A stretch of DNA of 35,148 nt from Ruminococcus sp. (GTDB lineage Bacteria; Bacillota; Clostridia; Oscillospirales; Ruminococcaceae), in contig NZ_JAFUAG010000043.1 of assembly GCF_017464355.1 (NCBI RefSeq), forward strand, positions 1-35,148. Direction: 5' to 3'. The translations under genes were made by a program, and so were the position numbers. Every line of letters begins with the position of its first letter. The stretch's first letter is position 1. The notes under the pieces were generated by a model that did not search any database, was not told the origin of the DNA, and worked only from the letters and a program-made list of their open reading frames with translations. Below, piece after piece: positions 10,918-26,187 of this stretch.

Positions 10918-11925
10918 TCAGCAGATACGGGGCAGCAGCTCGCCGCCGGGCTGGGGCAGCATGGTCTGTGCGCCTATCTCTGTTTCCATAACTACTCTGC
11001 CTGCGTTCTCAGCGGTTATCTCGCCGATGATGGCAGCGTTCTTTGAATACTTGCCCTCACGGAGTTTTTCCACCAGTGCAGGTGCTTTGTCCCCGGGGGC
11101 TATTATGACAAGTCTGCCCTCGCAGGCAAGGTACAGGGGCTCCAGGCCGAGCATTCCGCATACACCCTTTACAGCAGGGTCAACGGGGATATCGGCAGTG
11201 TTAAGGCGAACACCTACCTTGCTCTGCTCAGCTATCTCGTAAAGCACTGTGCCTACACCGCCGCGGGTAGCATCGCGGATAGTGTGTATGTCATCGGTGA
11301 CAGAATAAAGGCTCTCCACCGTGCCCCAGAGAGGCGCGCAGTCGCTGTCAACTTCTGCATCTATACCGAACTCATCTCTTGCCAGCAGAATGGTGCAGCC
11401 GTGTCTGCCGATGTCGCCTGTGACGATGACAGCGTCCCCGGGCTTGGCAAAAGCACCCGAGGTATGGGCATTGTCCATTATCCTGCCCACACCTGTGGTG
11501 GTGATGAACACCTTGTCCACCTGACCCTTGCCTGCCACCTTGGTATCACCTGCCACGATGACCACACCTGCCTCGGCAGCGGTCTTCTCCATGGCTGCGG
11601 CTATCTCCTCCAGCTTGTCCATGGGGAAGCCTTCCTCGATGACGAAAGCGCAGGTGAGATACAGGGGCTTTGCGCCCATGCAGGCCAGGTCGTTAACGGT
11701 GCCGCATATGCTCAGCTTGCCTATGTTTCCGCCGTTGAACTCAAAGGGTGAAACTATGAAGCCGTCGGTAGACATGGCAAGTCTGCCCTCGCCTATATCC
11801 AGCACAGCCGCGTCATCAGCGGTGAACTTAGGGTTTGAAAAATGAGCCTTGAATACCTGATCTATCAGCTCAGAGGTCTGCTTTCCCCCCGCACCATGGG
11901 CGAGGGTAACTGTTTTTTCTGACAT
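10918..11925 (-). CDS. hypE: Hydrogenase maturation protein HypE (carbamoyl dehydratase)
   Basis: HypE receives a carbamoyl group from HypF on its C-terminal cysteine and dehydrates it with ATP to a thiocyanate, the source of the cyanide ligands placed on iron by HypCD. The 335-residue protein has the PurM-like fold with the glycine-rich N-terminal VTLAHGAGGKQTSELI and the essential C-terminal PRIC, whose terminal Cys is the carrier residue. AAAGGAG upstream of the ATG gives the start. It lies 176 bases after hypD, with a dispersed repeat in the gap. No hydrogenase structural gene is in the window. Confidence 0.96.
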   Translation of the reverse strand: MSEKTVTLAHGAGGKQTSELIDQVFKAHFSNPKFTADDAAVLDIGEGRLAMSTDGFIVSPFEFNGGNIGKLSICGTVNDLACMGAKPLYLTCAFVIEEGFPMDKLEEIAAAMEKTAAEAGVVIVAGDTKVAGKGQVDKVFITTTGVGRIMDNAHTSGAFAKPGDAVIVTGDIGRHGCTILLARDEFGIDAEVDSDCAPLWGTVESLYSVTDDIHTIRDATRGGVGTVLYEIAEQSKVGVRLNTADIPVDPAVKGVCGMLGLEPLYLACEGRLVIIAPGDKAPALVEKLREGKYSKNAAIIGEITAENAGRVVMETEIGAQTMLPQPGGELLPRIC

Positions 11926-12101: not shown

Positions 12102-13151
12102 TTATAAATTCTCGCCGTACTGATAGTAAGCCGCACAGGCACCCTCATCGGATACCATGCAGGCGCCTACGGGGTGTTCGGGGGTGCATACCTTGCCGAA
12201 GACCTTGCAGTCGCTGGGCTTGCACTTGCCCTGAAGCACCTCGCCGCAGCGGCAGGCAGGGTTGGGCTTGCCTGTTATTTTCGGCATATCATATTTCAGC
12301 CTTGCATCGAATTCGGCATACTCATCTCTCAGCTTCATGCCCGACATGGGTATAACACCAAGTCCCCGCCATTCGGTGTCGCAGGTCTCCATGACCTTTG
12401 CTATCAGCTTCTGTGCCGAGGGATTGCCTTCGTCCTTTACTACACGGGGGTAGCAGTTGACGAAGAAAGGCTCGCCCTTTTCAGCGTTTTTCAGAATGAC
12501 AGCTATGGCGATGAGCAGCTCGCTGGCGGTAAAGCCTGCCACTACTCCCGATACTCCCCGTTCTTTCAGCTCCTCGCAGACCTTGTTGCCTGCTATGGCA
12601 TTAACATGGCCGGGGTAAAGGAAAGCGTCTGCACTGCCCTCCAGTGCCTTGTAGGCATTGGGCATGGTCTTGTTGGCGGTGAGCAGCGAGAAGTTTTTCA
12701 GACCCTCTTTCTTTGCGGTCTCCACTGCCAGGCAGGCGGAGGGTGTGGTAGTTTCAAAGCCCACTGCCAGAAATACTATCTGCTCATCGGGGTTCTCTCT
12801 GGCCATATCCACTGCATCAAGGGGTGAATACACAGGCCTTACCTGAGCGCCCTTTGCCCTTGCCCCTGCCAGAGGCATCTCCGTTCCCGGGACACGGATA
12901 AGGTCGCCGAAAGTCGTGATGATACAGCCCTTTTCCAGCGCCAGCCAGATAGCTTCGTCGATAAAGCCCACGGGGGTGACACACACGGGGCACCCCGGGC
13001 CTGAGATCAGTTCAACATTATCGGGCAGCAGCTTGCGCAGACCCAGCCTGAATATCTCATGAGTGTGGGTGCCGCAGACCTCCATTATGCGCAGCGGTCT
13101 GCCCTTGTAGCCCGTTATGATGTCACGGGCTTTTCTTGCCTGTTCGTTCAT
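12102..13151 (-). CDS. hypD: Hydrogenase maturation protein HypD
   Basis: HypD, with HypC, forms the scaffold on which the Fe(CN)2CO unit is assembled; it carries a [4Fe-4S] cluster. The 349-residue protein shows the conserved EVCGTHTH, the redox motif GPGCPVCVTP and the C-terminal cysteine-rich cluster region with CRCGEVLQGKCKPSDC and later cysteines. Its ATG overlaps the hypC stop as ATGA, with GGAG nearby, so HypC and HypD are translationally coupled. All catalytic cysteines I can check are present, so the protein should be active. Confidence 0.96.
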   Translation of the reverse strand: MNEQARKARDIITGYKGRPLRIMEVCGTHTHEIFRLGLRKLLPDNVELISGPGCPVCVTPVGFIDEAIWLALEKGCIITTFGDLIRVPGTEMPLAGARAKGAQVRPVYSPLDAVDMARENPDEQIVFLAVGFETTTPSACLAVETAKKEGLKNFSLLTANKTMPNAYKALEGSADAFLYPGHVNAIAGNKVCEELKERGVSGVVAGFTASELLIAIAVILKNAEKGEPFFVNCYPRVVKDEGNPSAQKLIAKVMETCDTEWRGLGVIPMSGMKLRDEYAEFDARLKYDMPKITGKPNPACRCGEVLQGKCKPSDCKVFGKVCTPEHPVGACMVSDEGACAAYYQYGENL

Positions 13152-13357
13152 ATGAAATTCTCCATTACGTCTACAGCTTCGTCCTCATCGGACTCGGTTA
13201 TCTTGGCTATGGCCACACCTGCGTGTACCATGACATAATCGCCGGGCTCCAGCTCTTCCAGAATGTCAGCGCTGACCTCACGTCTTGCGCCGTTTGCATC
13301 GATAAGGGCAGTGCCGTCCTTAACGCTTACTACTTTTGCAGATAATCCAACACACAT
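13148..13357 (-). CDS. hypC: Hydrogenase maturation chaperone HypC
   Basis: HypC carries the iron unit between HypD and the apo-target enzyme. The 69-residue protein begins MCVGLSAKVV, with the functionally essential Cys2, and folds as a small beta barrel (GDYVMVHAGVAIAKI). In [NiFe]-hydrogenase systems this protein docks on the large subunit. No such subunit is seen here, so its client is an open question. The stop overlaps the hypD start. Confidence 0.95.
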   Translation of the reverse strand: MCVGLSAKVVSVKDGTALIDANGARREVSADILEELEPGDYVMVHAGVAIAKITESDEDEAVDVMENFI

Positions 13358-13423: not shown

Positions 13424-15736
13424 TCACGAATTATATATGCCGTAGGCTGCCTGCCCCAGGGCTATGCCGCCGTCATTGGGCGGGACAAGGCTGTGCAGCA
13501 GCACTGTAAAGCCGTTTTTCTCCAGACGGTCGCGGCAAAGTCTTGTAAGCAGGCGGTTCTGGAAAACACCGCCGCTGAGCGCCACGGTCTTAATGCCCGT
13601 ATCAGAGCTTATCTTCCCGCAGGCAGCCTCTACCATATCGGCCAGCACCGCATGGAAGGTATAGGCCTGGGCGCCCGTTCTGCTGCCTGCCAGCTTGCGT
13701 TCGGCAATGTCGGCCGCAAGGGCTGTGGTGCAGAGGGTCACATAGTTCTCGCCGACCTTTATGAGTTTTTCGGGGCGGCGGTAGTTTTCCGCCACGGTGG
13801 GGTGTTCTTCAAGAAAACGCTCCGCTTCGCACATAAGGGCGGTGGAAGCTTCGCCCTCAAAGGTGGAAGCCCGCCTTATGCCCAGTATTGCAGATACCGC
13901 ATCGAAAAGTCTTCCGCAGCTGGTGGAACCCACTGTGTTAAGTCCCTTTTCAGCCATGGCCTTTTGCAGGCGGTATTCCCTTGTATCGCAGACACCAAGC
14001 CGCTGGGCTATGACCTCGCCGCCGTCGCCGAAAGCGTCCCGCAGCAAAGCGGAGGCTATGCGCCAGCCCTCCTTTGAGGAAAGGTCGCCTCCCGTCTGGC
14101 TGAAAGGACGTATGCTGCCTGCACGGGTGTAGCCCCTGTAATCGCAGACCAGCAGTTCCCCGCCCCAGACAGTTCCGTCGTCGCCGTAGCCTGTGCCGTC
14201 AAAGCTTACCCCTATGACCTTGCCCTCGTAAGCATTCTCAGCCATGCAGGAAAGTATGTGGGCATAATGGTGCTGGACTTTCAGCAGGGGTATTCCCCGT
14301 TTCTTTGCAATATCCTCCGCCACACGGACGGTGTTGTACTTGGGGTGGGTATCGCAGACGATGACCTCAGGCTCGGCCTCCAGCAGGCCGCACATACGCT
14401 CGGTGCTTTCCTCCAGTGCATTGACCGTGCGTATATCCGCCATATCTCCCACATAGGGCGAGGGATAAAGCAGGTCGCCGCGGGCTATGCAGAAGCTGTT
14501 TTTCAACTCGCCGCCGATAGCAAGCACCTGTCTTCCCGTGGGATTTTTCAGCATGAAGGGCAGGGGTGCGAAACCTCTTGAACGTCTTATCATGTAAGGT
14601 CTGCCGAAAAGCCAGTCGGTAACGCTGTCATCTGCCCGCAGAAGTATCTTCCTGTTGTGGGAAAGTATCAGGTCACAGAAGCCCCCTATCTCCTTCACCG
14701 CATCTTCGTCACTGCGGCAGATAGGTGCCCCGCGGACATTGCCGCTGGTCATTACCAGGCTGTCGGTCATGGCCACATCATCGGGGTAGTCAAACAGCAG
14801 CATCTGCACAGGTGCGTAGGGCAGCATGACACCCACGGTGGTGTTGTCGGGGGCTATCAGCGGGCTGAGGGTGGCGGTGCTGCGTTTTTTCAGCAGCATT
14901 ATGGGCTTCTGCCAGCCTGTGAGACAGGCCTCCTGTCCTGCCCTTACATGGCATTCACGGAGGACAGTTCCCATGTCTTTCAGCATGACCGCAAAGGGCT
15001 TTGCAGGACGGTCCTTAAGCTTTCTCAGCCTTGAAACTGCCTCTTCATTATGGGCATCACAGCACAGGTGAAATCCGCCTATGCCCTTTACAGCGATTAT
15101 CCTGCCCTCCATTATAGCACGGCGGACATAGGTGATGGCTTCTCCCCGACGGATATCCGTACCCACTATATAAACCTCCGGGCCGCACTCGTTGCAGCAG
15201 ACAGGCTGTGCATCAAAGCGGCGGGTGGCGGGGTCGTGGTATTCGGCGGCGCACTTTTCGCACATGGGGTGTTCCCGCATGGTGGTGCGCTCACGGTCGT
15301 AGGGCATGGTGTCCAGAATGGTCAGCCTGGGGCCGCACTGGGTACAGTTTATAAAAGGGTGCAGATATCTTCTGTCCGTTTTATCGAACAGTTCAGCACG
15401 GCATTTATCGCAGGTGGCTATATCGGGCGAAACGAAGATATCTCCGTATTCCTTCTCGCTCTCGATTATCTCGAAGCCCGCAAACTCGGTATATTCAGTT
15501 TCAGAAACATCTACCTCCAGCACCATGGCACGCTCGGGGGGCTCGTGGCGTATCCTGTCTGCAAGATCGTAGAGGACTTCCTCCTCCCCCGTGGCAAAAA
15601 TATCCACATAGGAGCCTTTGTTGGCCACGGTGCCTGTTATGCCCAGCTCCTCGGCAGCTAGGGCGGTAAAGGGTCTGAACCCCACACCCTGCACAATGCC
15701 GAAAGCGCGTATATTAACGGTCTTAACTATGATCTT
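13424..15736 (-). CDS. hypF: Carbamoyltransferase HypF
   Basis: HypF converts carbamoyl phosphate with ATP to carbamoyl-adenylate and transfers the carbamoyl group to HypE. All expected modules are present in about 770 residues: an N-terminal acylphosphatase domain (GIVQGVGFRPF), two zinc-finger-like CxxC pairs (CDKC/CTQC and CEKC/CNEC), a YrdC-like nucleotide domain (KGIGGFHLCCDAHNEEA) and the C-terminal Kae1-like domain with HHYAH and the FDGTGYGDDG loop. The start is uncertain: GTG at 15736 lies 20 bases after the preceding stop but has a weak ribosome site; an ATG at 15802 would overlap that gene by 46 bases. Confidence 0.94.
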   Translation of the reverse strand, partial: KIIVKTVNIRAFGIVQGVGFRPFTALAAEELGITGTVANKGSYVDIFATGEEEVLYDLADRIRHEPPERAMVLEVDVSETEYTEFAGFEIIESEKEYGDIFVSPDIATCDKCRAELFDKTDRRYLHPFINCTQCGPRLTILDTMPYDRERTTMREHPMCEKCAAEYHDPATRRFDAQPVCCNECGPEVYIVGTDIRRGEAITYVRRAIMEGRIIAVKGIGGFHLCCDAHNEEAVSRLRKLKDRPAKPFAVMLKDMGTVLRECHVRAGQEACLTGWQKPIMLLKKRSTATLSPLIAPDNTTVGVMLPYAPVQMLLFDYPDDVAMTDSLVMTSGNVRGAPICRSDEDAVKEIGGFCDLILSHNRKILLRADDSVTDWLFGRPYMIRRSRGFAPLPFMLKNPTGRQVLAIGGELKNSFCIARGDLLYPSPYVGDMADIRTVNALEESTERMCGLLEAEPEVIVCDTHPKYNTVRVAEDIAKKRGIPLLKVQHHYAHILSCMAENAYEGKVIGVSFDGTGYGDDGTVWGGELLVCDYRGYTRAGSIRPFSQTGGDLSSKEGWRIASALLRDAFGDGGEVIAQRLGVCDTREYRLQKAMAEKGLNTVGSTSCGRLFDAVSAILGIRRASTFEGEASTALMCEAERFLEEHPTVAENYRRPEKLIKVGENYVTLCTTALAADIAERKLAGSRTGAQAYTFHAVLADMVEAACGKISSDTGIKTVALSGGVFQNRLLTRLCRDRLEKNGFTVLLHSLVPPNDGGIALGQAAYGIYNS

Positions 15737-15756
15737 CACCCCACTTGTCGTTTTTA

Positions 15757-16782
15757 TCAGTAAAGTCTTCCCGATACCGCAAAATGCGGCAGGTCGATCC
15801 ATTTTCCCGCATGATCGGGCAGAGCTCTTTTCAGGCTGATATCAGCAATTATCGTATCAAAGCCCTTTGCCTTTTCGGCGAAGTCCTCTTCGTCTTTTAT
15901 ATGGAAGTCACCCTCACGGGCAGCAGCTTCGTCAAGCCCGAAGAAAGTTCCGCAGACAGCATTTCCGCCCAGCATATCACGGACGGTGTTGGCAGCGTAC
16001 TGCTGGTGTATCACCAGAGTTTTTCCCTCGGGCGAGAAAGCCTTCAGCCCCTCGGTGATCTTTTCGGGCAGGGGACAGTTCTTCGCTTCAACATCAAGGC
16101 CGAACTTTTCTTTCAGGAACTTCCCTGCCCTGACCCCAGAGGGTGCGATCACGAATATCTTCTCAAAGCGGGTGATATCCTTTATCTCCTCAAGTCCGCT
16201 GTCAAGGCCAATGCAGACTACCTCAGAAAAGCCCTCGGCCTTAACCGCCGAAATAAGCTCATCGGCAGTGGTCAGCCCTGTGTTCAGGGGGGTGGCACCT
16301 ATGAGGGCAGCGGTGCCTTTCCTGGTGGGCTGCTTTTCGGTGACGAACTTTTCAAACAGCTTAAGGTAGGCTTCTTCCTCACCCTTGTCGTAAAGCTTGG
16401 TGCCGTCGGTATGAACTGTTACGCAGGGCACCCCGATGCGCTTTTCAGCCATGCGTTCAAGGGCTTTGTAATCGGTGGCTATAACTGCGGGAACAGGTGT
16501 GCCCACCACAGCTGTGAAGCTTCTGCCAAGCTGCTGCTGAGCCGTGGCCAGCTTTGCCACAAGGCGGTCATCTCTGCCGAGGATAGCGTCCATATCTCTC
16601 AGGCCTGCACTGAACAGTGCAGACTTTTTCGTTGACCACCTGGGTTCGTCAAATCCGCAGACATTTCCTGCACAGCCGCCCGCATCGCAGATGACGGTAA
16701 TGCCGCCCAGCTCGTAAAGCACCGAGCAGGCACCTGAATCATCGGGGGCAAGGGGCGATATGAATTTGAGCAGTTTTTTCAT
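15757..16782 (-). CDS. Nitrogenase component 1-like protein, K type (second set)
   Basis: A 341-residue member of the NifD/NifK/BchN-type oxidoreductase family, much shorter than NifK (about 520). It is paralogous to the K-type protein at 18848-20020: both have Cys19, Cys37 and a DEPRW motif at residues 45-49, and both end in WIDLPHFAVSGR or IELPHFAFSGR. Cys37, in the DAGGC segment, corresponds to a cluster-ligand position. The cysteine that its paralog has at residue 93 is replaced here (VVGTP in place of LCGSP). The ATG at 16782 overlaps the upstream stop as TGATG, with AAGGAGG seven bases away; a GTG three bases earlier is possible. Substrate unknown. Confidence 0.85.
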   Translation of the reverse strand: MKKLLKFISPLAPDDSGACSVLYELGGITVICDAGGCAGNVCGFDEPRWSTKKSALFSAGLRDMDAILGRDDRLVAKLATAQQQLGRSFTAVVGTPVPAVIATDYKALERMAEKRIGVPCVTVHTDGTKLYDKGEEEAYLKLFEKFVTEKQPTRKGTAALIGATPLNTGLTTADELISAVKAEGFSEVVCIGLDSGLEEIKDITRFEKIFVIAPSGVRAGKFLKEKFGLDVEAKNCPLPEKITEGLKAFSPEGKTLVIHQQYAANTVRDMLGGNAVCGTFFGLDEAAAREGDFHIKDEEDFAEKAKGFDTIIADISLKRALPDHAGKWIDLPHFAVSGRLY

Positions 16783-18068
16783 CACTTACCCTCCTTTTCC
16801 AGTGCGGCCGATAGCTGTGCCAGCAGTTTTTCCACCATATCATAGCCGAAGGGCTGTTCCTCCTCATCAAAGGGAACATTCGGCAGGTCGGGATGATAGT
16901 AGAGCGCATCAGAGCCAACGGTGATATCGATGTGGGTCTTGCGCTCGTAGTTCAGCATGGTGGGTGAAAGATTTGAGAATATCCTGGTTTCGGGCGAAAG
17001 CTCCGCCAGCTTCTTTATAAAGAAGAAATTGCGCTCGCCCACCGTGCCGTATATCTCACTGACCTTGTGGCCGTATCCCGTCAGCGCCAGTGCCAATTCA
17101 AAGCTGTCAGCATTCACGTTCTCGCCGATGGCAAAGCTCAGCTGGCCGAACCTTTCACGAAAGCTTTCTGTCTTCTGTTTTGCATTCTCATAATATTCCG
17201 CATCATCGAACTCGACCCCCAGGGCCTGACCCAGCAGGCGGTACTGGTTGTGTATCTTATCAATGCGGTAAAATCTGTTTATCTCGATGTAGGGTATGCC
17301 CAGACGTTTTTCCATGTCCTGGGCGGCATACCTTGCCTCGGGGTTTATTACCAGGTCAAAATTTGCCTGTGACAGCTTGTGGTAATCCTCGATAGTATCA
17401 CATCGGGAAAGTTCCTGCGTGGCCACCCCCACCGACTTGAGCAGTGCATATAATTCACTGCTGTCATTTAGGGGGGCGAAATACCCCAGTATATTACAGC
17501 GGTCGCCCCGCCTTTTCTGCGGCTTCAGCAGACCGTACACCGACCTGCGCACACCTGCCATGGGGGGCAGACGCTTTTCTCTGGTCAGGGCATACATATA
17601 TGCAGGCAGTGTGGGGACGTTCGTTGCCTCCTCGCACTTGCGGCAGACCCTTTCCATATCAGTGCCCAGCAGTGCGTCAACGCAGGTTATGCATATCATC
17701 ACTGCGGTGGGGGTGTAGTCAAGGCTGTCACAGACCTCTTTGCAGGCCTTGGGTATCTTGGTGAGGTGCCTGCCTGTGACGATATCGGTGTCGTCCAGCA
17801 GCAGGTAGAAAAATCTCTCGTTGTAGCCCAGCTCGTTCAGCAGTGCGGTGTTTCTTCCGCAGCAGCCCGGGGCTACCAGCAGCATGACCGACCCTGGTAT
17901 GGCCAGCCCCGCCCTTTTTACACCGAAACCCTTTGCACCGGGAGAATTGAAATTCAGGGTGGCAGGGGAAGAATATATCAGGTGTCTGGCACTCATGAGT
18001 TCATCGGGGGTGTTCTCAAAGCCCTTTGCCGCCAGTTCAGCGGCGGTGATGTAAAAAGCCTCAGTCAT
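16782..18068 (-). CDS. Nitrogenase component 1-like protein, D type (second set)
   Basis: A 428-residue component 1-like protein. It has a GCCGR motif at residues 68-72, aligned with the first P-cluster cysteine of NifD, and [13 protein letters not shown] (Cys129) at the position of the later cluster cysteine; extra cysteines follow in VCRKC (142-145). The FeMo-cofactor ligand region of NifD is not recognisable, which argues against N2 fixation. The start at 18068 overlaps the end of the H gene and is fixed by GGAGGAG upstream; its stop overlaps the next K-type gene as TGATG. It probably pairs with that K protein and receives electrons from the adjacent H protein. Confidence 0.85.
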
Positions 18069-18825
18069 CTTTCTCCTCCTCGGCGATGAGTTTTTCTGCC
18101 AGTTCAAAAAATCGCTTTGCGGTCTCGCATTCGGGGTCGCCCTCGATGACTGTCTTACCCATATCCTCGTACTTGATTATATCGGCTGAACGGGGGATAT
18201 CAGCGGCCACATCAAGGCCTGCCGACTCAGCAAAGGCGCGTACCTTTTCCTCTTCGTTTTCCACCGCACGGCGGTTCATTATTACCCCGCGGACTTTCGC
18301 GTAGCTTCTGTCCTCGAAATTCTTCACTGCCTTGTTGATGTTGTTTGCGGCATACAGCGCCATTTTCTCTCCTGAGGTAACGATAAGCACCTTGTCGGCA
18401 TAGCCCTCACGGATAGGGGCTGCAAATCCTCCGCAGACCACATCGCCCAGAACATCATACAGCACCACATCGGGCTTGAACTTTTCAAAAAGCTCCAGTT
18501 CCTCCAGCAGGGCGAAGGTGGTGATTATGCCTCTTCCCGCACAGCCGAGCCCGGGGGTAGGGCCGCCTGTTTCTATACAGAGTATGCCGCCGAAACCCAC
18601 CTGGCTTATCTCCTCAATGGAGGTCGGCTCATCATCATGTTCACGCATATAATCCATAACAGGTGTTACAGGCACGCCCCCCAGCAGATTTATGGTAGAG
18701 TCTGCCTTGGGGTCACAGCCTATCTGTATGACCCGCTTGCCAAGGCTTGCAAAGGCCGCAGCCAGATTAGCGGTGCAGGTGGATTTTCCTATGCCGCCCT
18801 TACCGTATATCGCAAGTTTTATCAT
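18061..18825 (-). CDS. Nitrogenase reductase-like ATPase (NifH type, second set)
   Basis: A 254-residue NifH/BchL/CfbC-type iron protein. In this family a homodimer holds one [4Fe-4S] cluster and passes low-potential electrons to a component 1 partner with ATP hydrolysis. The P-loop GKGGIGKST, the switch motifs CDPKADST and the two cluster cysteines in GLGCAGRG and [11 protein letters not shown] are all intact. The Arg after the first cysteine, the ADP-ribosylation site in NifH, is also kept. It is shorter than NifH proper (about 290). It lies 22 bases after the first K-type gene and overlaps the following D-type gene. Confidence 0.93.
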
Positions 18826-18847
18826 TCAAAAAAACTCCTCATTCATT

Positions 18848-20020
18848 TTACTTTATGCCCCAGAGCGCCCTGAGGTCTTTGCCCACAAGGCCTGTCATGT
18901 TCCTTGCAAAGCACCTGCCCGAGAACGCAAAGTGGGGCAGTTCGATGAGCCCGCAGCACTCGGGGACAACATATCTGTAGAGTGGGTCGGCTATGACCGT
19001 CTTTATGCCGTTCTCTCTGAGGTATGCCTTTATGTCCTCCTCGGCATACAGCGGAAGATCTTTTTTATCCGCTATATACTCCTCATCAGCATCAGGGGGA
19101 CAAATGACATCGACCCCGCTTGCTGTCAGCAGCGACCATTCCCTTGCTATGGAGCCTGCAAGCACAGCCTCACCGATGACGGCCTTGTCTGCCTTTTTAT
19201 CACGGGACTTTCCCCGCAGCACAGGCGCAAGAGAACTTCTGCCGTCACGGGCTGACCTTTCCATTTCGGATAGACATTCCCGAAGCTGCCGCGAATTTCC
19301 CACAGGCACCCCGCAGACATAGGGTATGCCGAATTCCTTTTCCATATACTTAGCCGCAGCCAGCCCGCAGTAGGATACCACAAGATCGACCTTTGCAGAA
19401 GCGGCTTTGCGTATATCCTCAAGGGTGCTGCCCATACCTATGCCCGATATGAACCTTGCGCCCTGCCCGCCGAACTCTTTTACTATGGACTCCACAGTGC
19501 CCGTCAGGCCGAAGTCCAGGGGGGTAGCACCGAGGATATTATAGGTCAGGCCATCATAGCTGTCCTTTGGCATTTCACGGACGAACTCTTTCACCAGCGC
19601 TTTCAGCGCCATGGAAGCCCCCGACACATAGGAACGGGTGCCGTTGGTCTCCAGCCCGAAGGTGGGTATGCCTGTGCGGTGCTGAATGTCCTCCGCCACT
19701 GCACGGTAGTCAAAGCCTGTCATCATGGGCATGGGTGAACCGCACAGCGCTATAAAGGCAGGGTGCTGGTCTTTAGCCGCAGAAACTATATCTTCTATAA
19801 GCTTTTCATCGTTGCCCATGACAGCGTCAAGCTCTGTCAGGGCAGAAATATATATCATTGAACGCTTGTCGTACCAGCGGGGCTCATCGTGGGTGGAGTA
19901 AGTCGAGTTGCACCCCGATGCATCGTGGACGACAGTCATTCCCCCGTATTCATACAGCGCCGAGCATACGCCCGAGGTATCAGCTGCATAGCAGGGTATC
20001 ACAGTACTGACATTTTTCAT
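18848..20020 (-). CDS. Nitrogenase component 1-like protein, K type (first set)
   Basis: A 390-residue component 1-like protein. It has Cys10, Cys19 and Cys37 (DASGC) near the N-terminus, the DEPRW motif at 45-49, and Cys93 in ALCGSPMP, the position typical of a cluster cysteine in this fold. The C-terminal IELPHFAFSGR is shared with the other K-type protein. It is longer by about 50 residues, mainly through an insertion near residues 235-275 (SEMERSARDGRSS and what follows). It starts 16 bases after the D-type gene with GAGGT upstream. It is the likely partner of that D protein. Confidence 0.87.
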   Translation of the reverse strand: MKNVSTVIPCYAADTSGVCSALYEYGGMTVVHDASGCNSTYSTHDEPRWYDKRSMIYISALTELDAVMGNDEKLIEDIVSAAKDQHPAFIALCGSPMPMMTGFDYRAVAEDIQHRTGIPTFGLETNGTRSYVSGASMALKALVKEFVREMPKDSYDGLTYNILGATPLDFGLTGTVESIVKEFGGQGARFISGIGMGSTLEDIRKAASAKVDLVVSYCGLAAAKYMEKEFGIPYVCGVPVGNSRQLRECLSEMERSARDGRSSLAPVLRGKSRDKKADKAVIGEAVLAGSIAREWSLLTASGVDVICPPDADEEYIADKKDLPLYAEEDIKAYLRENGIKTVIADPLYRYVVPECCGLIELPHFAFSGRCFARNMTGLVGKDLRALWGIK

Positions 20021-20036
20021 AGGTACCTCTTTTTTA

Positions 20037-21350
20037 TCACAGACAGCTCTCGCAGCCTATGCCCTTGTGGGATATGAGCTTTCGCCTGTCCTTCGGTGCT
20101 TCTGCAGCCTCCTCAATGAGGGCTGCAAGGGCTGCTATGCCTGTAAAGCCGTAATATCCGCCGTTCTGCACTATGTTTACGAAATAGTCCGTATCGAAAT
20201 AGTGGGCAGCCTTCTGGCCTACGGCAACTATATGCTCGTGGTCTTCCTCGGGGAAATGCAGCATATTCACATTCACCGCCGAGAAGATAGTTATATCGGG
20301 GGCAAGTTCTTTCAGGCGGTCAAAGGCAGCGCCGTCCTCCCCCAGGGTATCATTGATGATGTACTTCACATTGAAACCGTGTTCAACAAGCAGCTTCGCC
20401 AGACCAAAGGGCTGGGTAACTGCGGTAAAGTCGATAGCTATGGGTATATCCCCCAGAGCCTTGGCAGCCTTGGCAAGGGCTTTTTCCGCGGCCTGTTCTT
20501 CGTGGGAAAGGTCGGGGCAGGCTATACCCAGCGTTTCACAGAGCTTTGCCATGTTCGCTCTTATCTCGTCATAGTCAAAGCTGTTCGGCAGATACAGCGC
20601 CTTTGTCCCCAGACGTTCGCTAAGCTCATCACAGCCAAACTTTGCGGTGGGCAGGTAGGCTATGTTCACCGCCGACCCTGCCATGTCAAGGTACTCATCA
20701 TAGGTCCTGCAGGCGGTAAGGTCTTTCAGGGTGAAGCCGTTTTCCTTTATGACCCGCACGAACTCGCTCTGCTCATCGGTGGGGCGGTCGTTGCCCAGTA
20801 TGTTCACCGACCTCGGGTCGATATCCACAGGCTTGAGGGCATTGTAGAGCTGCGCCCTCATCTTCGCATCAGGAGATATGGTCTTGCGCATGGTGGGTGT
20901 CATGTAGCAGTCAGAAAAATCTATATCGGGAAATTTTTCGGACAGTTGTCCGATAATGATATCAAAATCACAGCCTGCAAAAAGGTGTATGCAGCTGAGG
21001 TACAAAAGCACCGCACGGGGTCTGTAGGGCAGCCCCTCGATTATCTCGCTTACACCCTCCACCACATCGCTTTCAAGGGTGCCGTCGAACATATCCTGCT
21101 CCGACACGGATATCCAGCTCATACGCTCGATAGCGTTCATCTCCGCCGCCGTGAGTATCACACCTCTCAGGCAGCCCTGGGCGCAGGCGAATATCTCATG
21201 GCACTCGGGTATGAGCATACCTGTGTGTACTATGTTCCACACACCTCTGGCAGGGGGATTGTATTCAAGCCCGCCCGCAAAGAAGTCACCTCTCGGGGCA
21301 TCGCCCAGCTTCACCGAAGGGGGGCGGTCGTAGGCAAGTGTTTTCAGCAT
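20037..21350 (-). CDS. Nitrogenase component 1-like protein, D type (first set)
   Basis: A 437-residue component 1-like protein. Cys50, Cys56 and Cys60 cluster in ECHEIFACAQGCLRG, and Cys120 and Cys127 lie in LSCIHLFAGCD, where NifD has its P-cluster cysteines. Near the C-terminus, GGYYGFTG aligns with NifD's GPYHGFDG, but the cofactor-binding histidine is replaced by tyrosine. The protein ends in a CESCL tail, an unusual exposed CxxC. The start at 21350, one base after the H-gene stop, has GGAGGTGA at ideal distance; a longer frame to 21413 lacks this support. Confidence 0.87.
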   Translation of the reverse strand: MLKTLAYDRPPSVKLGDAPRGDFFAGGLEYNPPARGVWNIVHTGMLIPECHEIFACAQGCLRGVILTAAEMNAIERMSWISVSEQDMFDGTLESDVVEGVSEIIEGLPYRPRAVLLYLSCIHLFAGCDFDIIIGQLSEKFPDIDFSDCYMTPTMRKTISPDAKMRAQLYNALKPVDIDPRSVNILGNDRPTDEQSEFVRVIKENGFTLKDLTACRTYDEYLDMAGSAVNIAYLPTAKFGCDELSERLGTKALYLPNSFDYDEIRANMAKLCETLGIACPDLSHEEQAAEKALAKAAKALGDIPIAIDFTAVTQPFGLAKLLVEHGFNVKYIINDTLGEDGAAFDRLKELAPDITIFSAVNVNMLHFPEEDHEHIVAVGQKAAHYFDTDYFVNIVQNGGYYGFTGIAALAALIEEAAEAPKDRRKLISHKGIGCESCL

Positions 21351-21351
21351 A

Positions 21352-22110
21352 TCACTCACCTCCGCAAACAGCATAGACGCTTTCTGCCACAGCCCGCAGC
21401 TGTTTTGCCGCAAGGCTGTCGGGGGCGGAATTTATCACGGCTCTCCCCTGTTCTTCCGCAAGGGGTATATCCTCGCTGCGGTCTACAGCGGCGATTACCT
21501 TTGTGTCAAAATCAGCCGCCAATTCCTCAGCGGACTTATCTTCATCGGGCACCCCGCGGCGGTTGAGTATTATCCCGCCCAGGGAAGCATAGCCTCTGCC
21601 CTTGAAATTATCCACCGCCATGCAGATATTAGCCGCGGCATAGCGGGACATCTTCTCCCCCGAACAGACCACGAATATCTTATCCGCATAGCCCTTGCGC
21701 ATGGGCATGGAAAACCCTCCGCAGACCACGTCACCCAGCACGTCATACACTACCACATCGGGCTTGAAGCGTTCATAGGCCCCCAGCTTTTCCAGGCTTT
21801 CCAGCGCATTGATGATGCCGCGCCCCGCACAGCCCAGCCCAGGTACAGGGCCGCCTGCTTCAACGCAAAGCACACCGCTTTCGGTGGTTTGCACCACATC
21901 GTCCAGGGTGAACTTGCCCCCTGTCTTACGGGTCAGGTCAAGGACGGTGGGTATGCGCTCGCCGCCGTGGAGCAGCGAGGTCGAGTCCGCCTTGGGGTCG
22001 CAGCCTATCTGCATGACAGTAAGGCCTTTTTCCGCCAGCGCCGCCGAGATGTTGCAGGCTATAGTTGATTTGCCTATGCCGCCCTTTCCGTATATCGCAA
22101 ATTTTATCAT
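21352..22110 (-). CDS. Nitrogenase reductase-like ATPase (NifH type, first set)
   Basis: A 252-residue NifH-type iron protein, paralogous to the one at 18061-18825. It keeps [25 protein letters not shown] and [11 protein letters not shown], so the nucleotide and [4Fe-4S] sites are complete. Its ATG overlaps the hydE stop as ATGA, with GAGGTGA just upstream, meaning that translation of this reductase is coupled to the hydE-like gene. It is followed one base later by its D-type partner. Confidence 0.93.
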   Translation of the reverse strand: MIKFAIYGKGGIGKSTIACNISAALAEKGLTVMQIGCDPKADSTSLLHGGERIPTVLDLTRKTGGKFTLDDVVQTTESGVLCVEAGGPVPGLGCAGRGIINALESLEKLGAYERFKPDVVVYDVLGDVVCGGFSMPMRKGYADKIFVVCSGEKMSRYAAANICMAVDNFKGRGYASLGGIILNRRGVPDEDKSAEELAADFDTKVIAAVDRSEDIPLAEEQGRAVINSAPDSLAAKQLRAVAESVYAVCGGE

Positions 22111-23150
22111 ATATGGTCACCTCTCGTAACTGCTACCTCGTAGCCTATGGACTTCATGCGTGCTTCAAGACAGCCCCTGCACTGGGCGCTCTCATCGCCT
22201 GTGCATATCTTGTTGTCGTAAAGCATATATTTCTTCCTTACCGCCGTAGGGGAAAGGTTTGGCATGATTACGTTGGCCCCTGCCTTTACGCCCTCTTCTC
22301 TGCCCAGGGGAGCAATGGTGCCAAGGGCAGTGGTGGCGGGCAGCAGCACATCAGGCAGGAGTATCCTGCACAGGCTCAGCAGGAAAAGGGTCAGTTCATA
22401 GCTGCCCTTGGGTTCATCACGGAAGGGGGTATCCTTGTGGGGCAGAAAGGGGCCTATGCCTATCATCTCGGGCTTGAAGCTTTCAAAGAAGATCATATCC
22501 TCTGCAATGCAACCCACTGTCTGGTAAGGGGAACCCACCATTATGCCCGCACCTGTCTGGTAGCCCAGATCCTTCAGGGCTTTAAGGCAATCCATGCGGT
22601 GCTGCCAGGACATCTCAGCGGGGTGGAGTTTTTCGTAGTGCGCCTTGTCGGCGGTCTCGTGCCTCAGCAGATATCTGTCCGCCCCCGCTTCACGCAGTGC
22701 CTTGTAATCCTCGTACTCCAGCTCCCCTATAGAAAGGGTGACAGCACAGTCAGGGTGGGCGGCCTTTATCCTTCGGACTATGCCGCACAGCCTTTCGGTG
22801 GAATAGCTTTTGTCCTCACCGCTTTGCAGCACAAAGGTACGGAAACCCAGCTCATAGCCCTCATCACAGCAGTCAGCTATCTCATCATCGGTGAGCCTGT
22901 AGCGGCTGACATTGGTATTCGACCGCCTGATGCCGCAGTACAGGCAATCGTTCTTACAGACATTGGAGAACTCCACTATTCCTCGGATAAATATTTTGTT
23001 CCCGTAAATACCAAGGCTTATGCTGCGTGCAATGCCTGCTGCATACTCTCTGTCCTCATCGGTGAAGTTTTCAAGCACCTCCACCCACTCAGCCTTATCA
23101 AGATGTTTCTGCTCATTCAGTTTATCTATAAGCTCTGTAACTCTGCTCAT
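22107..23150 (-). CDS. hydE: Radical SAM protein HydE-like ([FeFe]-hydrogenase maturase)
   Basis: HydE is a radical S-adenosylmethionine enzyme that acts on the Fe(CO)2CN-cysteine precursor during assembly of the [FeFe]-hydrogenase H-cluster. The 347-residue protein has the SAM-cluster motif FSNVCKNDCLYCGIRR (CxxxCxxC) at about residues 60-75. It also has the accessory-cluster spacing C-x7-C-x2-C near the C-terminus (CTGDESAQCRGC), as in T. maritima HydE. Its stop overlaps the first nifH-like start, so it may serve the nitrogenase-like genes as well as, or instead of, a hydrogenase. hydG and hydA are not in the window. Confidence 0.9.
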   Translation of the reverse strand: MSRVTELIDKLNEQKHLDKAEWVEVLENFTDEDREYAAGIARSISLGIYGNKIFIRGIVEFSNVCKNDCLYCGIRRSNTNVSRYRLTDDEIADCCDEGYELGFRTFVLQSGEDKSYSTERLCGIVRRIKAAHPDCAVTLSIGELEYEDYKALREAGADRYLLRHETADKAHYEKLHPAEMSWQHRMDCLKALKDLGYQTGAGIMVGSPYQTVGCIAEDMIFFESFKPEMIGIGPFLPHKDTPFRDEPKGSYELTLFLLSLCRILLPDVLLPATTALGTIAPLGREEGVKAGANVIMPNLSPTAVRKKYMLYDNKICTGDESAQCRGCLEARMKSIGYEVAVTRGDHI

Positions 23151-23165
23151 TTTTTGCCACCCTGT

Positions 23166-23795
23166 TTACTGTATTATCTTTGCCTGATAGATCGTATCTC
23201 TGTAATAACTGAGCCTTGAACCTGCGCTCTGACCGCCGAAGCGGTCTGACCTTTCGAGCCTCAGCGAACAGGTGCCCGATTCGTCAATGACATCTGCTTT
23301 TATCTCGGTATGGGAACTGCCGCTGTATCTGCCGCCGCGCTTCAGGTATACCTCTCTTATATCCTTAAGCCTTGCCATGCCCACACCCTCAACGAAAACA
23401 TACCTGCTGCCCAGCATGACAGTGCTTCTCTCCAGACACCTCGCCGACAGCAGATCTTCATACACTGCGTCGATACCGTCGGCTGCTATGAGCATTTTTA
23501 CACGGTCAAGCTGGGGCTGGTAATGGCTGCTTTGCAGCTTGTATCCCAGCACCGCCGCAGTAATGCCAAATACGATGAAAATTATACCCATGGGCTCAAA
23601 CTTCTGAAAAATGATCCACACCAGTACGGGCACCAATGCTATCCCGATACCGCCCAGCACGGAATAGAGCCGTTTGCCGGAAAGAGCATTTTCGGAATAA
23701 TTCTCCGAAAGCTTAAGCATATTGTCTACTGTTCTGTATTTACGGCCTTCTTCGCCTTCTCTGTCAAAAAAGCCCAGCACATTATTTTTACTCAT
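23166..23795 (-). CDS. Membrane protein of unknown function, paralog B
   Basis: A 209-residue protein with two membrane segments around residues 44-85 and a cytosolic C-terminal domain. It is a paralog of the next gene upstream: both have an N-terminal FF/FY-D/E-R-x-GE motif and a matching core DGID.VYEDL followed by R-S-x-V and YxF/L. I know no domain for it. It starts 45 bases after paralog A and ends 15 bases before hydE, so it is embedded in the hydrogenase-maturation segment. A role in membrane attachment or assembly of a metalloenzyme is only a guess from position. Confidence 0.78.
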   Translation of the reverse strand: MSKNNVLGFFDREGEEGRKYRTVDNMLKLSENYSENALSGKRLYSVLGGIGIALVPVLVWIIFQKFEPMGIIFIVFGITAAVLGYKLQSSHYQPQLDRVKMLIAADGIDAVYEDLLSARCLERSTVMLGSRYVFVEGVGMARLKDIREVYLKRGGRYSGSSHTEIKADVIDESGTCSLRLERSDRFGGQSAGSRLSYYRDTIYQAKIIQ

Positions 23796-23840: not shown

Positions 23841-24455
23841 TTACGAGAGCCTTATCTTTGCGGATTCTATGGGCTTGTTTATCTGCTCGAACTGCTTCTG
23901 GCGCTGTACCTTTATGGCGCTGAGTTTTCTAAGTTCCAGAGTTTCCGCCCCGACCTCATCACTGACATCTACCATGCAGTAATACTCAACATCGTCGCCG
24001 CTTTCAATGTTGCTGACGTAGCACTTGCGCACATCGCTCATGCGCACCATGAAGTTGTTCTGCCTGAACAGGTAATACTCGCCAATATATACCTCGCTGC
24101 GGTCGATACGCTCGCAGTGCATCAGGTCTTCGTACACACGGTCAATGCCGTCTGTTTCGATTATCTTCTCCGTCCTCAGCAAAGGTGTGTAGGGCTTTCG
24201 GAATTTGAAATATCCGAAATAAAAGCCTATTACCAGAAATACCGCTGCGCCTATGTAAAACACAGGTCTTCCCAGCAGCACCCCGAGGCCTGCAGCAGCC
24301 GCTGCACCCAGCAGTCCCACTGTCCAGCCTGTTACCCTGGTCTTCTTTGCATTCTGCTTGTTTGCGTGCGCTGAAAGTCCCAGGAACTTATCTATCTCAC
24401 GGAACTTCTCAGCCTGCTCTCCCCCACGCTCATAAAAAGAGATGTTGTTTTTCAT
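23841..24455 (-). CDS. Membrane protein of unknown function, paralog A
   Basis: A 204-residue protein with two hydrophobic helices near residues 42-82 and a soluble C-terminal domain carrying DGIDRVYEDLMHCERIDRSE, which matches paralog B. The two genes look like a tandem duplication that has since diverged. GAGGTAAAAATG at the start overlaps the end of hydF: the ATG is two bases beyond the hydF TAA. Family not recognised. Confidence 0.78.
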   Translation of the reverse strand: MKNNISFYERGGEQAEKFREIDKFLGLSAHANKQNAKKTRVTGWTVGLLGAAAAAGLGVLLGRPVFYIGAAVFLVIGFYFGYFKFRKPYTPLLRTEKIIETDGIDRVYEDLMHCERIDRSEVYIGEYYLFRQNNFMVRMSDVRKCYVSNIESGDDVEYYCMVDVSDEVGAETLELRKLSAIKVQRQKQFEQINKPIESAKIRLS

Positions 24456-24457
24456 TT

Positions 24458-25663
24458 TTACCTCATTTCTGTTTTACCTGTTCCAGGTATCATCTCAAGA
24501 CTTCTTTCCAGTATGCCGTTCATATAGGCGATAGCTATGCCGTAATTAGTTACGGGTACCCCAGCTTCTTCCACCGTCATCATGCGGCTGGTCATCTCCC
24601 TGGCATTGAGCATACAGCCCCCGCAGTGTATGACCAGTGCATAGTCTGTCAGGTCATCGGGGAACTCCCTGCCCGAGGTAAACTCCAGCCGAAAGTCCTT
24701 GCCTGTGTATTTCTTCAAAAGCTTCGGCAGCTTGACCGTGCCGATATCCTCGCACTGCCTGTGGTGTGTACAGCCCTCGGAGATGAGTATGCGGTCGCCG
24801 TTCTTAAGGTCATCTATGGCCCGTGCCCCCCGCACCGCAGGTGCCAGGAAGCCCTTGTATCTGGCCATAAGTATGGAAAAAGATGTAAGCTTTATATCCT
24901 TTGGAGTATCCGCATCAGCTCTGGCAAACACCTGGCTGTCGGTTATGACAGCATCGGGCTTGGGGCTCAGCTTTTCCAGCACATCTTTAAGCTCCGTATC
25001 CCGACAGGTGACAGCCGCCGCACCATGCTCCAGCAGGTCGCGTATCACCTGCTGCTGCGGAAGTATCAGCCTGCCCTTGGGCGCCGCCTTGTCGATAGGT
25101 ATGCACAGCACCGCCATGCCGCCCTCACCGATGAGATCCCCCACCAGGGCTCTGTGTTCCTCCTTGTCACTGCTGAGCCTTGCCACCAGTTCTTTCAACT
25201 CGTGGATATTGCGGCCCTCCAGCGCACTGACGAATATCTCGTTCTCAGCGGCTTCGGGTATGCTCTCCAGCAGATCGGACTTATTCTTCACTATAACATA
25301 GGGTATGTTACGCTTTTTGAAAAGCTCTGTCAGCTTCTGTTCGCTTTCGTCCATAGGGCGGGTACAGTCCGTTACCAGCACAGCGCAGTCCGTTCTGCCC
25401 AGTATCTCAGCGGTCTTCCTGACCCTGAGCCCGCCCAGCTCGCCCACGTCATCAAAGCCTGCGGTGTCGATTATCATCACAGGCCCCATAGGCAGAAGTT
25501 CCATTGCCTTATAAACAGGGTCGGTGGTGGTGCCGGGGGTGTCAGAAACTATGGCAAGCTCCTGCCCCGTAAATGCGTTGACAACGCTGGATTTTCCTGC
25601 ATTTCGCTTCCCGAAGAAACCGATATGCACCCTTTCCCCCGAGGGGGTATCATTCAATCCCAT
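24458..25663 (-). CDS. hydF: [FeFe]-hydrogenase maturation GTPase HydF
   Basis: HydF is the scaffold GTPase on which the [2Fe] subcluster is completed and handed to HydA. The 401-residue protein has an N-terminal GTPase domain (GKRNAGKSS P-loop, TTTDP, DTAGFDD, NKSD), a middle dimerisation region, and the C-terminal cluster ligands CTH and HCGGC in the family's CxH...HCxxC pattern. The start at 25663 has AAAGGAGA upstream; the 35-residue longer frame has a composition typical of non-coding sequence. It heads the tightly packed part of the minus-strand array. Confidence 0.95.
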   Translation of the reverse strand: MGLNDTPSGERVHIGFFGKRNAGKSSVVNAFTGQELAIVSDTPGTTTDPVYKAMELLPMGPVMIIDTAGFDDVGELGGLRVRKTAEILGRTDCAVLVTDCTRPMDESEQKLTELFKKRNIPYVIVKNKSDLLESIPEAAENEIFVSALEGRNIHELKELVARLSSDKEEHRALVGDLIGEGGMAVLCIPIDKAAPKGRLILPQQQVIRDLLEHGAAAVTCRDTELKDVLEKLSPKPDAVITDSQVFARADADTPKDIKLTSFSILMARYKGFLAPAVRGARAIDDLKNGDRILISEGCTHHRQCEDIGTVKLPKLLKKYTGKDFRLEFTSGREFPDDLTDYALVIHCGGCMLNAREMTSRMMTVEEAGVPVTNYGIAIAYMNGILERSLEMIPGTGKTEMR

Positions 25664-25700
25664 AAACTCATCTCCTTTAAGAAAACTATACCATGAAAAA

Positions 25701-25739
25701 CACAAAAGCCCGCGCTCTCCCGAAAAAGAGAGCACGGGC
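25701..25739 (-). terminator. Terminator or attenuator between the TM1266-like gene and hydF
   Basis: On the minus strand a 12-bp stem with one mismatch (25739-25728 with 25719-25708) encloses an 8-nt loop and is followed by TTTTGTGTTTTT. It stands 143 bases after the regulator gene and 38 bases before hydF. I see no good separate promoter for hydF, so read-through from the regulator promoter past this hairpin may set expression of the maturation genes. Confidence 0.78.
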
Positions 25740-25881
25740 GGATATACCGATACAGACCCTGCGGACACAGCTGTCCCAAGGCCTTTGTGCCGACTGCTTT
25801 CACCTCAAATATGATTTTCGGTGTCAGGAGAAGTTCTGCGTTATTCTGTTGTCTGTCTTCGCCGTCAGAAAGCTCTTGGGC

Positions 25882-26127
25882 TCAGACAGTTGAATAGACC
25901 GTTTTGGCTGTAACACCCTGCAGTCTGCCTATCCTGCCTGCCAGGGTATTTATCTTGTCCTGGGGGGCATCGATGGCGATGCTTATGATGTTCACCTTTT
26001 TTATACGGTAGGGCACGCCCATTCTTCCGATGATAAATTCACCGAAATCATGGAGTATGGCGTTTATGCTTTCCACGGTACTGCTGTCCTCGATGATGAT
26101 AGAAATAACTGCTACTCTCGTCTGCAT
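25882..26127 (-). CDS. TM1266-family putative iron-only hydrogenase system regulator
   Basis: An 81-residue ACT/NikR-C-like small domain protein with the family opening TRVAVISIIIEDS and a central GEFIIGRMGVPYR, as in TM1266 of Thermotoga, which is found next to [FeFe]-hydrogenase genes. It has no DNA-binding segment of its own. The second ATG (26127) is preferred because AAAGGA lies nine bases upstream; the first ATG at 26133 is only three bases from it. Its own promoter overlaps a strong palindrome. Confidence 0.85.
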   Translation of the reverse strand: MQTRVAVISIIIEDSSTVESINAILHDFGEFIIGRMGVPYRIKKVNIISIAIDAPQDKINTLAGRIGRLQGVTAKTVYSTV

Positions 26128-26187
26128 AGTCATGCGTCCTTTCTATCGGTGTCAGCCACCGTGAATATATTTGATTTTCTACTTAAG

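Follow-up and report, generated by a model that had tools for sequence, protein, structure and literature searches.

We analyzed a 35,148-nucleotide stretch of DNA from Ruminococcus sp. (contig NZ_JAFUAG010000043.1 of assembly GCF_017464355.1; hereafter the window), which carries two complete sets of nitrogenase-like genes within an operon of [FeFe]-hydrogenase maturation and hyp genes. The six genes follow one another on the minus strand in the order H1-D1-K1-H2-D2-K2, from 22110 to 15757, and form two sets that we refer to as HDK1 and HDK2. Each set opens with a nitrogenase-like Fe protein, H1 (21352-22110) in the first and H2 (18061-18825) in the second, recognized by PF00142 (Fer4_NifH; 281 and 298 bits, respectively) and by tree placement. 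The other four products resemble nitrogenase component 1 and matched PF00148 (Oxidored_nitro; cut-off 28.6) at 54–108 bits: D1 (20037-21350; 78 bits; alignment A2) and K1 (18848-20020; 108 bits; alignment A1) in set 1, and D2 (16782-18068; 98 bits; alignment A4) and K2 (15757-16785; 54 bits; alignment A3) in set 2. We placed the start of D1 at Met22 of its open reading frame (ORF), a residue almost invariant in its alignment, and that of D2 at Met14, the majority residue in its own. From H1 to K2, successive genes are separated by 1, 16, and 22 bases and then overlap by 8 and 4 bases; H1 in turn overlaps hydE by 4 bases. A sequence-only reading of the window had described this six-gene run on one strand with tiny gaps and overlaps, and the coordinates and Pfam matches agree with it.

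That reading had also credited both Fe proteins with a P-loop and the two [4Fe-4S] cysteine motifs. These are present in H1 and H2 of the window and recur in script-called relatives, where the P-loop pattern was found in 68/70 H1 and 47/47 H2 sequences and both cysteine motifs in every one (70/70 and 47/47). Between the two sets of the window, identity is 51% for the H proteins, 33% for the K proteins, and 24% for the D proteins, values that speak for two old, distinct sets and against a recent duplication. A scan of species genomes with K1 returned 346 relatives, the best 80 of which were kept as loci; with 12 further loci that we fetched, they make up the 92 K1 loci used for layout counts. 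HDK2 genes were seen in 58 of these 92, which argues that the double set is no chance arrangement.

The operon continues on both sides of the six genes. Its same-strand order is TM1266, HydF, HydE, H1D1K1, H2D2K2, and HypF-C-D-E, and HydE, HydF, TM1266, HypC, HypD, HypE, and HypF all score above their curated NCBIfam cut-offs. The sequence-only reading had seen no pathway genes here, and in this it was mistaken. Upstream on the minus strand lie a TM1266-family iron-only hydrogenase system regulator of 83 amino acids (25882-26133; TIGR03959, 107.8 bits against a cut-off of 60.8; PF21699, 104 bits), the H-cluster maturation GTPase HydF (24458-25768; TIGR03918, 554.8 against 325.6), and the radical S-adenosylmethionine H-cluster maturase HydE (22107-23150; TIGR03956, 557.6 against 254.6). 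Downstream, on the same strand, are HypF, the carbamoyltransferase for cyanide (CN) ligands (13424-15802; TIGR00143, 731 against 466), whose true start is uncertain and whose listed ORF runs 46 bases into K2; the chaperone HypC, which starts Met-Cys (13148-13357; TIGR00074, 59.3 against 48); the scaffold HypD (12102-13151; TIGR00075, 418 against 193); and HypE, with its C-terminal, cyanide-carrying PRIC tail (10918-11925; TIGR02124, 415 against 252). Cysteines 65, 69, and 72 of HydE and 333, 382, and 385 of HydF are kept, and among called sequences of relatives the PRIC tail occurs in 36/36 HypE and the Met-Cys start in 41/41 HypC.

No HydG match exceeded the cut-off of 312 bits in the window or in the whole host genome. 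A 185-bit match to the HydG model, considered as a hidden HydG, was rejected: it is ThiH (TIGR02351, 509 bits against a cut-off of 380), and its neighbors resemble ThiG and ThiE by eye. The host encodes a group A6 NADH-dependent [FeFe]-hydrogenase (848 bits) with the TSCCPGW, PCTAKK, and MACPGGC H-cluster motifs, one HydF, and, in the HydG-model search, one HydE. Searches of the same genome returned no [NiFe]-hydrogenase match and no HypB over its cut-off. The host thus pairs an [FeFe]-hydrogenase, HydE, and HydF without HydG with a Hyp set that has no [NiFe] target. Because the genome (G000; 3.48 Mb in 49 contigs, with the window as contig C24) is 91% complete, the absence of HydG leans on the genomes of relatives for support. 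Elsewhere in the host, contig C8 (locus L139) encodes a second [FeFe]-hydrogenase-like protein (564-amino-acid frame) with altered H-cluster motifs, perhaps a sensory hydrogenase, and a second TM1266-like protein in the same stretch.

The relatives provide that support. In a sample of 196 genomes drawn evenly from the same class, each at least 90% complete and with G000 included, HydF was present in 132 and HydG exceeded its cut-off in 126. Cross-reading the HydF, HydG, and K1 tables, we found HDK1 (called in HydG-lacking genomes at K1 scores of at least 290 bits) in 10 of the 11 genomes with HydF and no HydG, G000 among them, versus 3 of the 121 with both (Fisher p = 9.9e-12, uncorrected for relatedness among genomes). 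The three exceptions (G167, G181, and G113) carry K1-type matches of 370–389 bits in importer-linked sets whose D proteins show 28–29% identity, and no hyd genes were seen in the 15–16 kb fetched around these loci. A fourth genome with such an importer-linked set, G175, has neither HydF nor HydG. HydG matches over the cut-off scored 319–948 bits, with the next best at 222; in Clostridium ljungdahlii (G023), nothing scored above 68 bits in the HydG search. As for HDK2 without HDK1, K2-type matches to the K1 profile were found in seven genomes of the class sample, all of which also had K1. Within one genus, G124 has the order TM1266-HydE-HydG-HydF, versus H2D2K2-HypFCDE-TM1266-D1K1-HydF in G100, G169, G188, and G223, and only one Fe-protein gene was found in the locus of each of the latter. 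In genus g53 (L127–L130), H2 was the only Fe-protein gene detected beside two DK pairs, and one Fe protein may serve both pairs.

For 50 of the 80 loci, gene content was then compared across the 50 genomes that carry them; the other 30 loci stayed at locus level. This set holds 26 double-set genomes (HDK1 and HDK2) and 24 others; the loci of two of the latter (L086 and L088) start inside hypE and are incomplete double-set loci, and the remaining 22 are of importer type. One class-sample genome (G230) is probably the same as G016 of this set, as one match has an identical place and score. All 50 encode [FeFe]-hydrogenase. HypD is present in 27, namely all 26 double-set genomes and G046, which has an incomplete double-set locus, and in none of the 22 importer-type genomes, of which HydG is present in 5 and absent in 17. 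A [NiFe]-hydrogenase was found in 6 of the 50, all double-set (6/26) and two of them partial matches, and, of 32 double-set genomes (the 26 of this set, G000, and five of the class sample), 7 had a HypB above its cut-off.

Three layouts of the HDK1 loci occur. The first, TM1266-(HydF)-HydE-H1D1K1-H2D2K2-HypFCDE, is mainly that of Ruminococcus and its relatives. In the second, H2D2K2-HypFCDE-H1D1K1, found in Clostridium carboxidivorans, C. drakei, and C. luticellarii, no hyd genes were seen nearby; the stretches from C. ljungdahlii and C. muellerianum start at D2. In the third, TM1266 is followed by a Fec-type permease and ATPase, HydE, H1D1K1, a Fec-type binding protein, and HydF, with neither HDK2 nor Hyp. 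Among the 92 K1 loci, 60 have HDK2 and/or Hyp genes without FecB/FecD, 31 have FecB/FecD without HDK2 or Hyp, one, on a 5.7 kb contig, has neither, and none has both; this split refers to the fetched stretches, importers elsewhere in double-set genomes not having been sought. A hyp gene is present in 52 of the 58 loci with HDK2 genes, and the other six end within 622 bases of HDK2. HydE stands directly before H1 in 45 of the 49 loci that hold both. When the ORFs of the 80 loci were clustered, the only families longer than 150 amino acids found on the operon strand in at least 10 loci were HDK, hyd, hyp, and importer genes; single unlabeled neighbors were left unannotated. We read the alternation between importer and Hyp/HDK2 as two alternative sources of the HDK1 substrate, made or taken up.

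Among the 31 importer loci, 15 contain a single ORF that matches both the importer ATPase and TM1266; in L079, Pfam places a TM1266-like domain at the C-terminal end of the ATPase, and this fusion is a physical link from the importer to the hydrogenase system. A Fec-type importer adjoins HDK1 in L124–L126, L079, and the other loci of this type, and hydE or hydF lies within the same stretch in 18 of the 31. In the window, two proteins without a known family are encoded on the minus strand between HydF and HydE: TM204 (23841-24455), membrane-like by eye and with homologs in 8 R. albus-like loci, and TM209 (23166-23795), which is related to TM204 and clusters with it; neither has a Pfam match at E 0.01. 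Locus L010 has six ORFs of the TM204/TM209 type in tandem. At the other end of the operon, a dUTPase gene adjoins hypE (10458-10901), on the operon strand here and on the opposite strand in L010, L011, L012, L015, L016, and L017.

What kind of enzyme the two sets encode was approached through trees, curated models, and ligand positions. H1 fell in a clade of 16 rows (100/97) and H2 in one of 11 (100/100), both apart from NifH. Four of the five importer-linked D rows grouped with D1 and D2 in a clade of 22 (100/100), and the corresponding K rows grouped with K1 and K2 in the same way; outside the D and K clades lay Nif D/K/E, BchN/B/Y/Z, the host's third D and K, and the Sporomusa D and K. The expectation that the sets fall outside characterized clades held for all six proteins against those testable in the trees, Nif D/K/E and H and BchL/X/N/B/Y/Z. 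Mar and Cfb sequences were left out of the H and D/K trees, in which the bootstrap had not fully settled and long-branch warnings were raised; because long branches meet (Bch rows in both trees, Sporomusa and L170 rows in the D/K tree), placements of the Bch, Sporomusa, and L170 rows were not used. All six proteins scored below every curated NCBIfam nitrogenase-family cut-off that they matched: nifH (313 and 301 against 394), nifD (at most 37 against 654), nifK (at most 26 against 427), CfbC (301 and 298 against 402), CfbD (17 against 268), bchL (210 and 178 against 345), BchX (197 and 181 against 331), and BchB (at most 47 against 490). Profile searches of the PDB gave weak matches to nitrogenase, NifE, and BchB (K1, 74; D2, 57; K2, 33; D1, 32 bits) that do not settle function. 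The models predicted for D1 and D2 (predicted local distance difference test scores of 84 and 82) adopt the fold of nitrogenase component 1 and are 12–19% identical to the listed chains of Nif, NifEN, Mar, and dark-operative protochlorophyllide oxidoreductase (DPOR).

Three of the six P-cluster cysteines are kept, in line with the earlier claim that D and K retain some of them: the equivalents of alpha-88 and alpha-154 in 38/38 D rows and of beta-95 in 38/38 K rows, in nitrogenase numbering, as for the positions below. At the alpha-62, beta-70, and beta-153 positions, no column held six or more cysteines. The claim that a cofactor site of the iron-molybdenum (FeMo) type is missing also stood, as none of the 38 rows from D1, D2, or importer-type D proteins has a residue in the alpha-Cys275 or alpha-His442 column, where the two NifD have the Cys and the His. 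Further cysteines mark individual subunits: D1 Cys56 (20/20 D1 and 2/6 importer-type D), D1 Cys433 (20/20 and 0/6), D2 Cys69 and Cys126 (12/12), and K2 Cys43 (12/12). This anatomy suggests that D and K hold a cluster at their interface with three cysteines and another ligand, as in DPOR, and that they have no FeMo-type cofactor. Identity as a true nitrogenase or as Mar, Cfb, or Bch was rejected on the cut-offs, the ligand columns, and the trees, the last for Nif and Bch only. The host has a third H-D-K set, on contig C39 (L137:4571-9795, and to 12277), whose H groups with NifH and whose D keeps the Cys275 equivalent. It adjoins genes for a NifB-like protein (268 bits, cut-off 344) and for cysteine-synthase-like and cystathionine lyase/synthase-like proteins, and it looks Mar-like and concerned with sulfur salvage.

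Each part of the locus resembles a known system and departs from it. As in HydE-HydF-HydG maturation, TM1266, HydE, and HydF share an operon and the host has a hydrogenase with H-cluster motifs, but HydG is missing from the genome and HDK1, HDK2, and HypCDEF stand after hydE. The hyp genes match those of [NiFe]-hydrogenase maturation down to the PRIC tail and Met-Cys start, yet they sit in an [FeFe] operon, without a HypB over the cut-off or a [NiFe]-hydrogenase. MarHDK is likewise a two-component nitrogenase-like system with a D/K pair of the same fold (9fmg and 9d9u are among the structure matches). According to passages of PMC12552129, Mar has six P-cluster cysteines and an active-site Cys270, likened to alpha-Cys275, on an [Fe8S9C] cluster, together with His429; the D and K proteins here have three of the six and a gap in the alpha-Cys275 column, with no Mar sequence in the alignment or trees. 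CfbCD and the Bch/Chl enzymes DPOR and chlorophyllide oxidoreductase are also nitrogenase-like reductases of cofactor synthesis, but the present proteins lie far under their curated cut-offs and apart from the Bch rows, with no Cfb in the trees. The ligands of the DPOR cluster are three cysteines and an aspartate, which the three conserved cluster cysteines of D and K recall.

The closest layout beyond the hydrogenase loci is that of H-D-K sets beside FecB/FecD/FecE-type genes on Treponema saccharophilum pTS1, on Sporomusa termitida pSPTER, and in four Clostridia. Five of these six are in the D/K tree, and four of them, all except Sporomusa, join the D1+D2 and K1+K2 clades. They differ in that no hyd or hyp genes were seen in their loci and in that the C-terminal cysteine of D1 (20/20 D1) is absent from all six. 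The two plasmid-borne loci (L160 in T. saccharophilum and L161 in S. termitida), each with H-D-K and a Fec-type importer and without annotated hyd genes, represent an uncharacterized related family whose substrates may be imported metal complexes; the pSPTER locus also holds TonB siderophore receptors. We found nothing relevant in the open-access literature on HDK genes beside siderophore transporters.

In other organisms, it is established that HypE and HypF convert carbamoyl phosphate to cyanide and that HypC and HypD carry an Fe(CN)2CO unit. Passages of the literature state that HypCD carries Fe(CN)2CO (PMC12134894), that the [2Fe] unit of the H-cluster bears three carbon monoxide (CO) and two CN ligands (PMC3105041), and that tyrosine is the normal source from which HydG provides CO and CN, either as free diatomics or in the form of an Fe(CO)2CN synthon (PMC9431212). 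With a probability of roughly 0.75, we hold that the HDK sets, together with Hyp or an importer, constitute a route by which the Fe-CO-CN unit of the H-cluster is obtained without HydG, the chemistry of which we infer as follows. HypE and HypF would make cyanide from carbamoyl phosphate, and HypC and HypD would hold Fe(CN)2CO. HDK2, which we assign to the HypCD side because it accompanies hypFCDE, may pass low-potential electrons to this scaffold at the expense of ATP, the most likely outcome being CO formed from CO2 or from an Fe-bound C1 group; we offer this step tentatively. HDK1, assigned to the HydE side because it occupies the place of hydG after hydE, might reductively convert an Fe(CN)2CO-type unit to approximately Fe(CO)2(CN), the usual HydE input from HydG, by removal or exchange of ligands; the conversion takes one CN out and brings one CO in, and its exact form is doubtful. 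HydE and HydF, their conserved cysteines kept, would complete and deliver the cluster. Nitrogenases are capable of turning cyanide into methane and ammonia and of reducing CO2 to CO, so two nitrogenase-like enzymes for these two steps are chemically reasonable. In importer-type genomes, the Fec-type importer would take the place of HypCDEF and HDK2.

The maturases themselves were compared between HDK and HydG loci. HydE showed only mild preferences at a few positions and HydF none by the chosen criterion (50 versus 11 and 42 versus 15 sequences, respectively), so diagnostic changes were set aside, as a change of substrate could not be read from mild preferences. Given this lack of strong diagnostic change, the route probably arrives at the same substrate that HydE normally uses. 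The sequence-only reading had proposed two linked reductions or two substrates; two linked reductions remains the best guess, with the amendment that HDK1 also occurs without HDK2, where an iron-type ATP-binding cassette importer replaces HDK2 and Hyp.

Several observations weigh against this route. Many of the sampled genomes are metagenome-assembled, and their relatedness is not corrected for in the Fisher test. G190 has HydE and HydF but lacks both HydG and HDK1, which shows that HDK1 is not obligatory in a genome without HydG; possibly it holds a further HydG-less solution or has a missing piece. (Its locus, L136, reads TM1266-HydE-HydF, and the genome is 99% complete.) HydG exceeded its cut-off in 6 of the 50 HDK1 genomes compared above, 1 of the 26 double-set genomes (G021, C. 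drakei) and 5 of the 24 others (G030, G031, G037, G045, and G047, all importer type). HydE does not adjoin H1 in 4 of 49 loci, and the Clostridium loci have no visible hyd genes. Parsimony counts six state changes on the HydF tree and four on the HydE tree, of which the starred branches force only two and one, respectively (both trees were built by a quick method, with every second HDK row of the first scan), and independence is partly shown. Seventeen of the 22 importer-type genomes lack both HydG and HypD, and Hyp therefore cannot be the sole ligand source; the imported HDK1 substrate invoked for them is putative, apparently taken up. Either HDK set could have a different molecule as its substrate. 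Finally, labeling excluded exogenous CO2 as a direct CO source in Ralstonia eutropha (passages of PMC12134894), which by analogy weakens the CO2 step of HDK2.

Among other explanations, the one that survives best, while quite improbable, is that HDK1 and HDK2 merely supply electrons or iron to HydE/HydF and HypD and that CO and CN come from an unrelated, unseen enzyme standing in for HydG. In its favor, the Fe proteins of nitrogenases donate electrons in an ATP-driven manner, a single Fe-protein gene stands with both DK pairs in the g53 loci, and passages of PMC12134894 treat the electron donor to HypD as unresolved. Against this, both sets keep full DK partners with invariant cluster cysteines, more than an electron donor would need, and in the double-set type CN is already explained by HypCDEF. 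We give slightly less credence to the notion that HydE, HydF, Hyp, and HDK build a new organometallic cofactor for some other enzyme. We know of no precedent for Hyp with HydE/HydF and two nitrogenase-like reductases, and the product of this combination could differ from the H-cluster; yet the host has one HydF and, in the HydG-model search, one HydE alongside a group A6 hydrogenase in which every H-cluster motif is present, every one of the 50 carrier genomes has an [FeFe]-hydrogenase, and a review (passages of PMC6288185) describes HydABC as active in R. albus and an [FeFe]-hydrogenase complex as isolated from C. autoethanogenum. Least probable is a grouping of mere convenience, with HypCDEF serving a [NiFe]-hydrogenase, HydE/HydF serving the [FeFe]-hydrogenase together with an undetected HydG, and HDK engaged in unrelated chemistry such as tetrapyrrole or sulfur reduction: individual genes from each of the three groups have known roles of their own, and some double-set genomes do have a [NiFe]-hydrogenase (6/26) or HypB (7/32), but 20 of 26 have HypD and no [NiFe]-hydrogenase, HydG scores leave an interval between 222 and 319 bits, HDK1 tracks the absence of HydG in the class sample, and the operon-strand families longer than 150 amino acids that recur in at least 10 of the 80 loci are HDK, hyd, hyp, and importer genes.

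The CO and CN of the H-cluster are held to come from HydG, yet acetogens in which no HydG is recognized have been reported with tentative explanations only. According to passages of PMC9431212, five of eight Clostridium acetogens have no HydG and several have HypCDEF without HypA/HypB; several hypotheses are offered, atypical HydG candidates are proposed, and the word nitrogenase appears once in that text, within a reference title. The text passages of an essentiality study of C. autoethanogenum (PMC9004356), its gene table aside, do not mention the HDK genes. In the titles and beginnings of abstracts of the open-access literature, with some result lists incomplete, we found no nitrogenase-like genes linked to H-cluster assembly. 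Our findings point to an undescribed way of making the CO- and CN-bearing iron center of [FeFe]-hydrogenases, relevant to H2 producers of the rumen, R. albus among them, and to industrial gas-fermenting clostridia. In its fullest form, which we consider unlikely as a whole, HDK2 would make CO for HypCD as an anaerobic carbonyl source, HDK1 would turn Fe(CN)2CO into the HydE substrate, and HDK1-only bacteria would import a ready-made iron-carbonyl-cyanide or its equivalent through a dedicated Fec-type transporter. If HDK2 does make CO, the origin of the anaerobic carbonyl would be answered for these anaerobes; if the substrate is imported, an exchangeable organometallic metabolite in bacterial communities would be implied.

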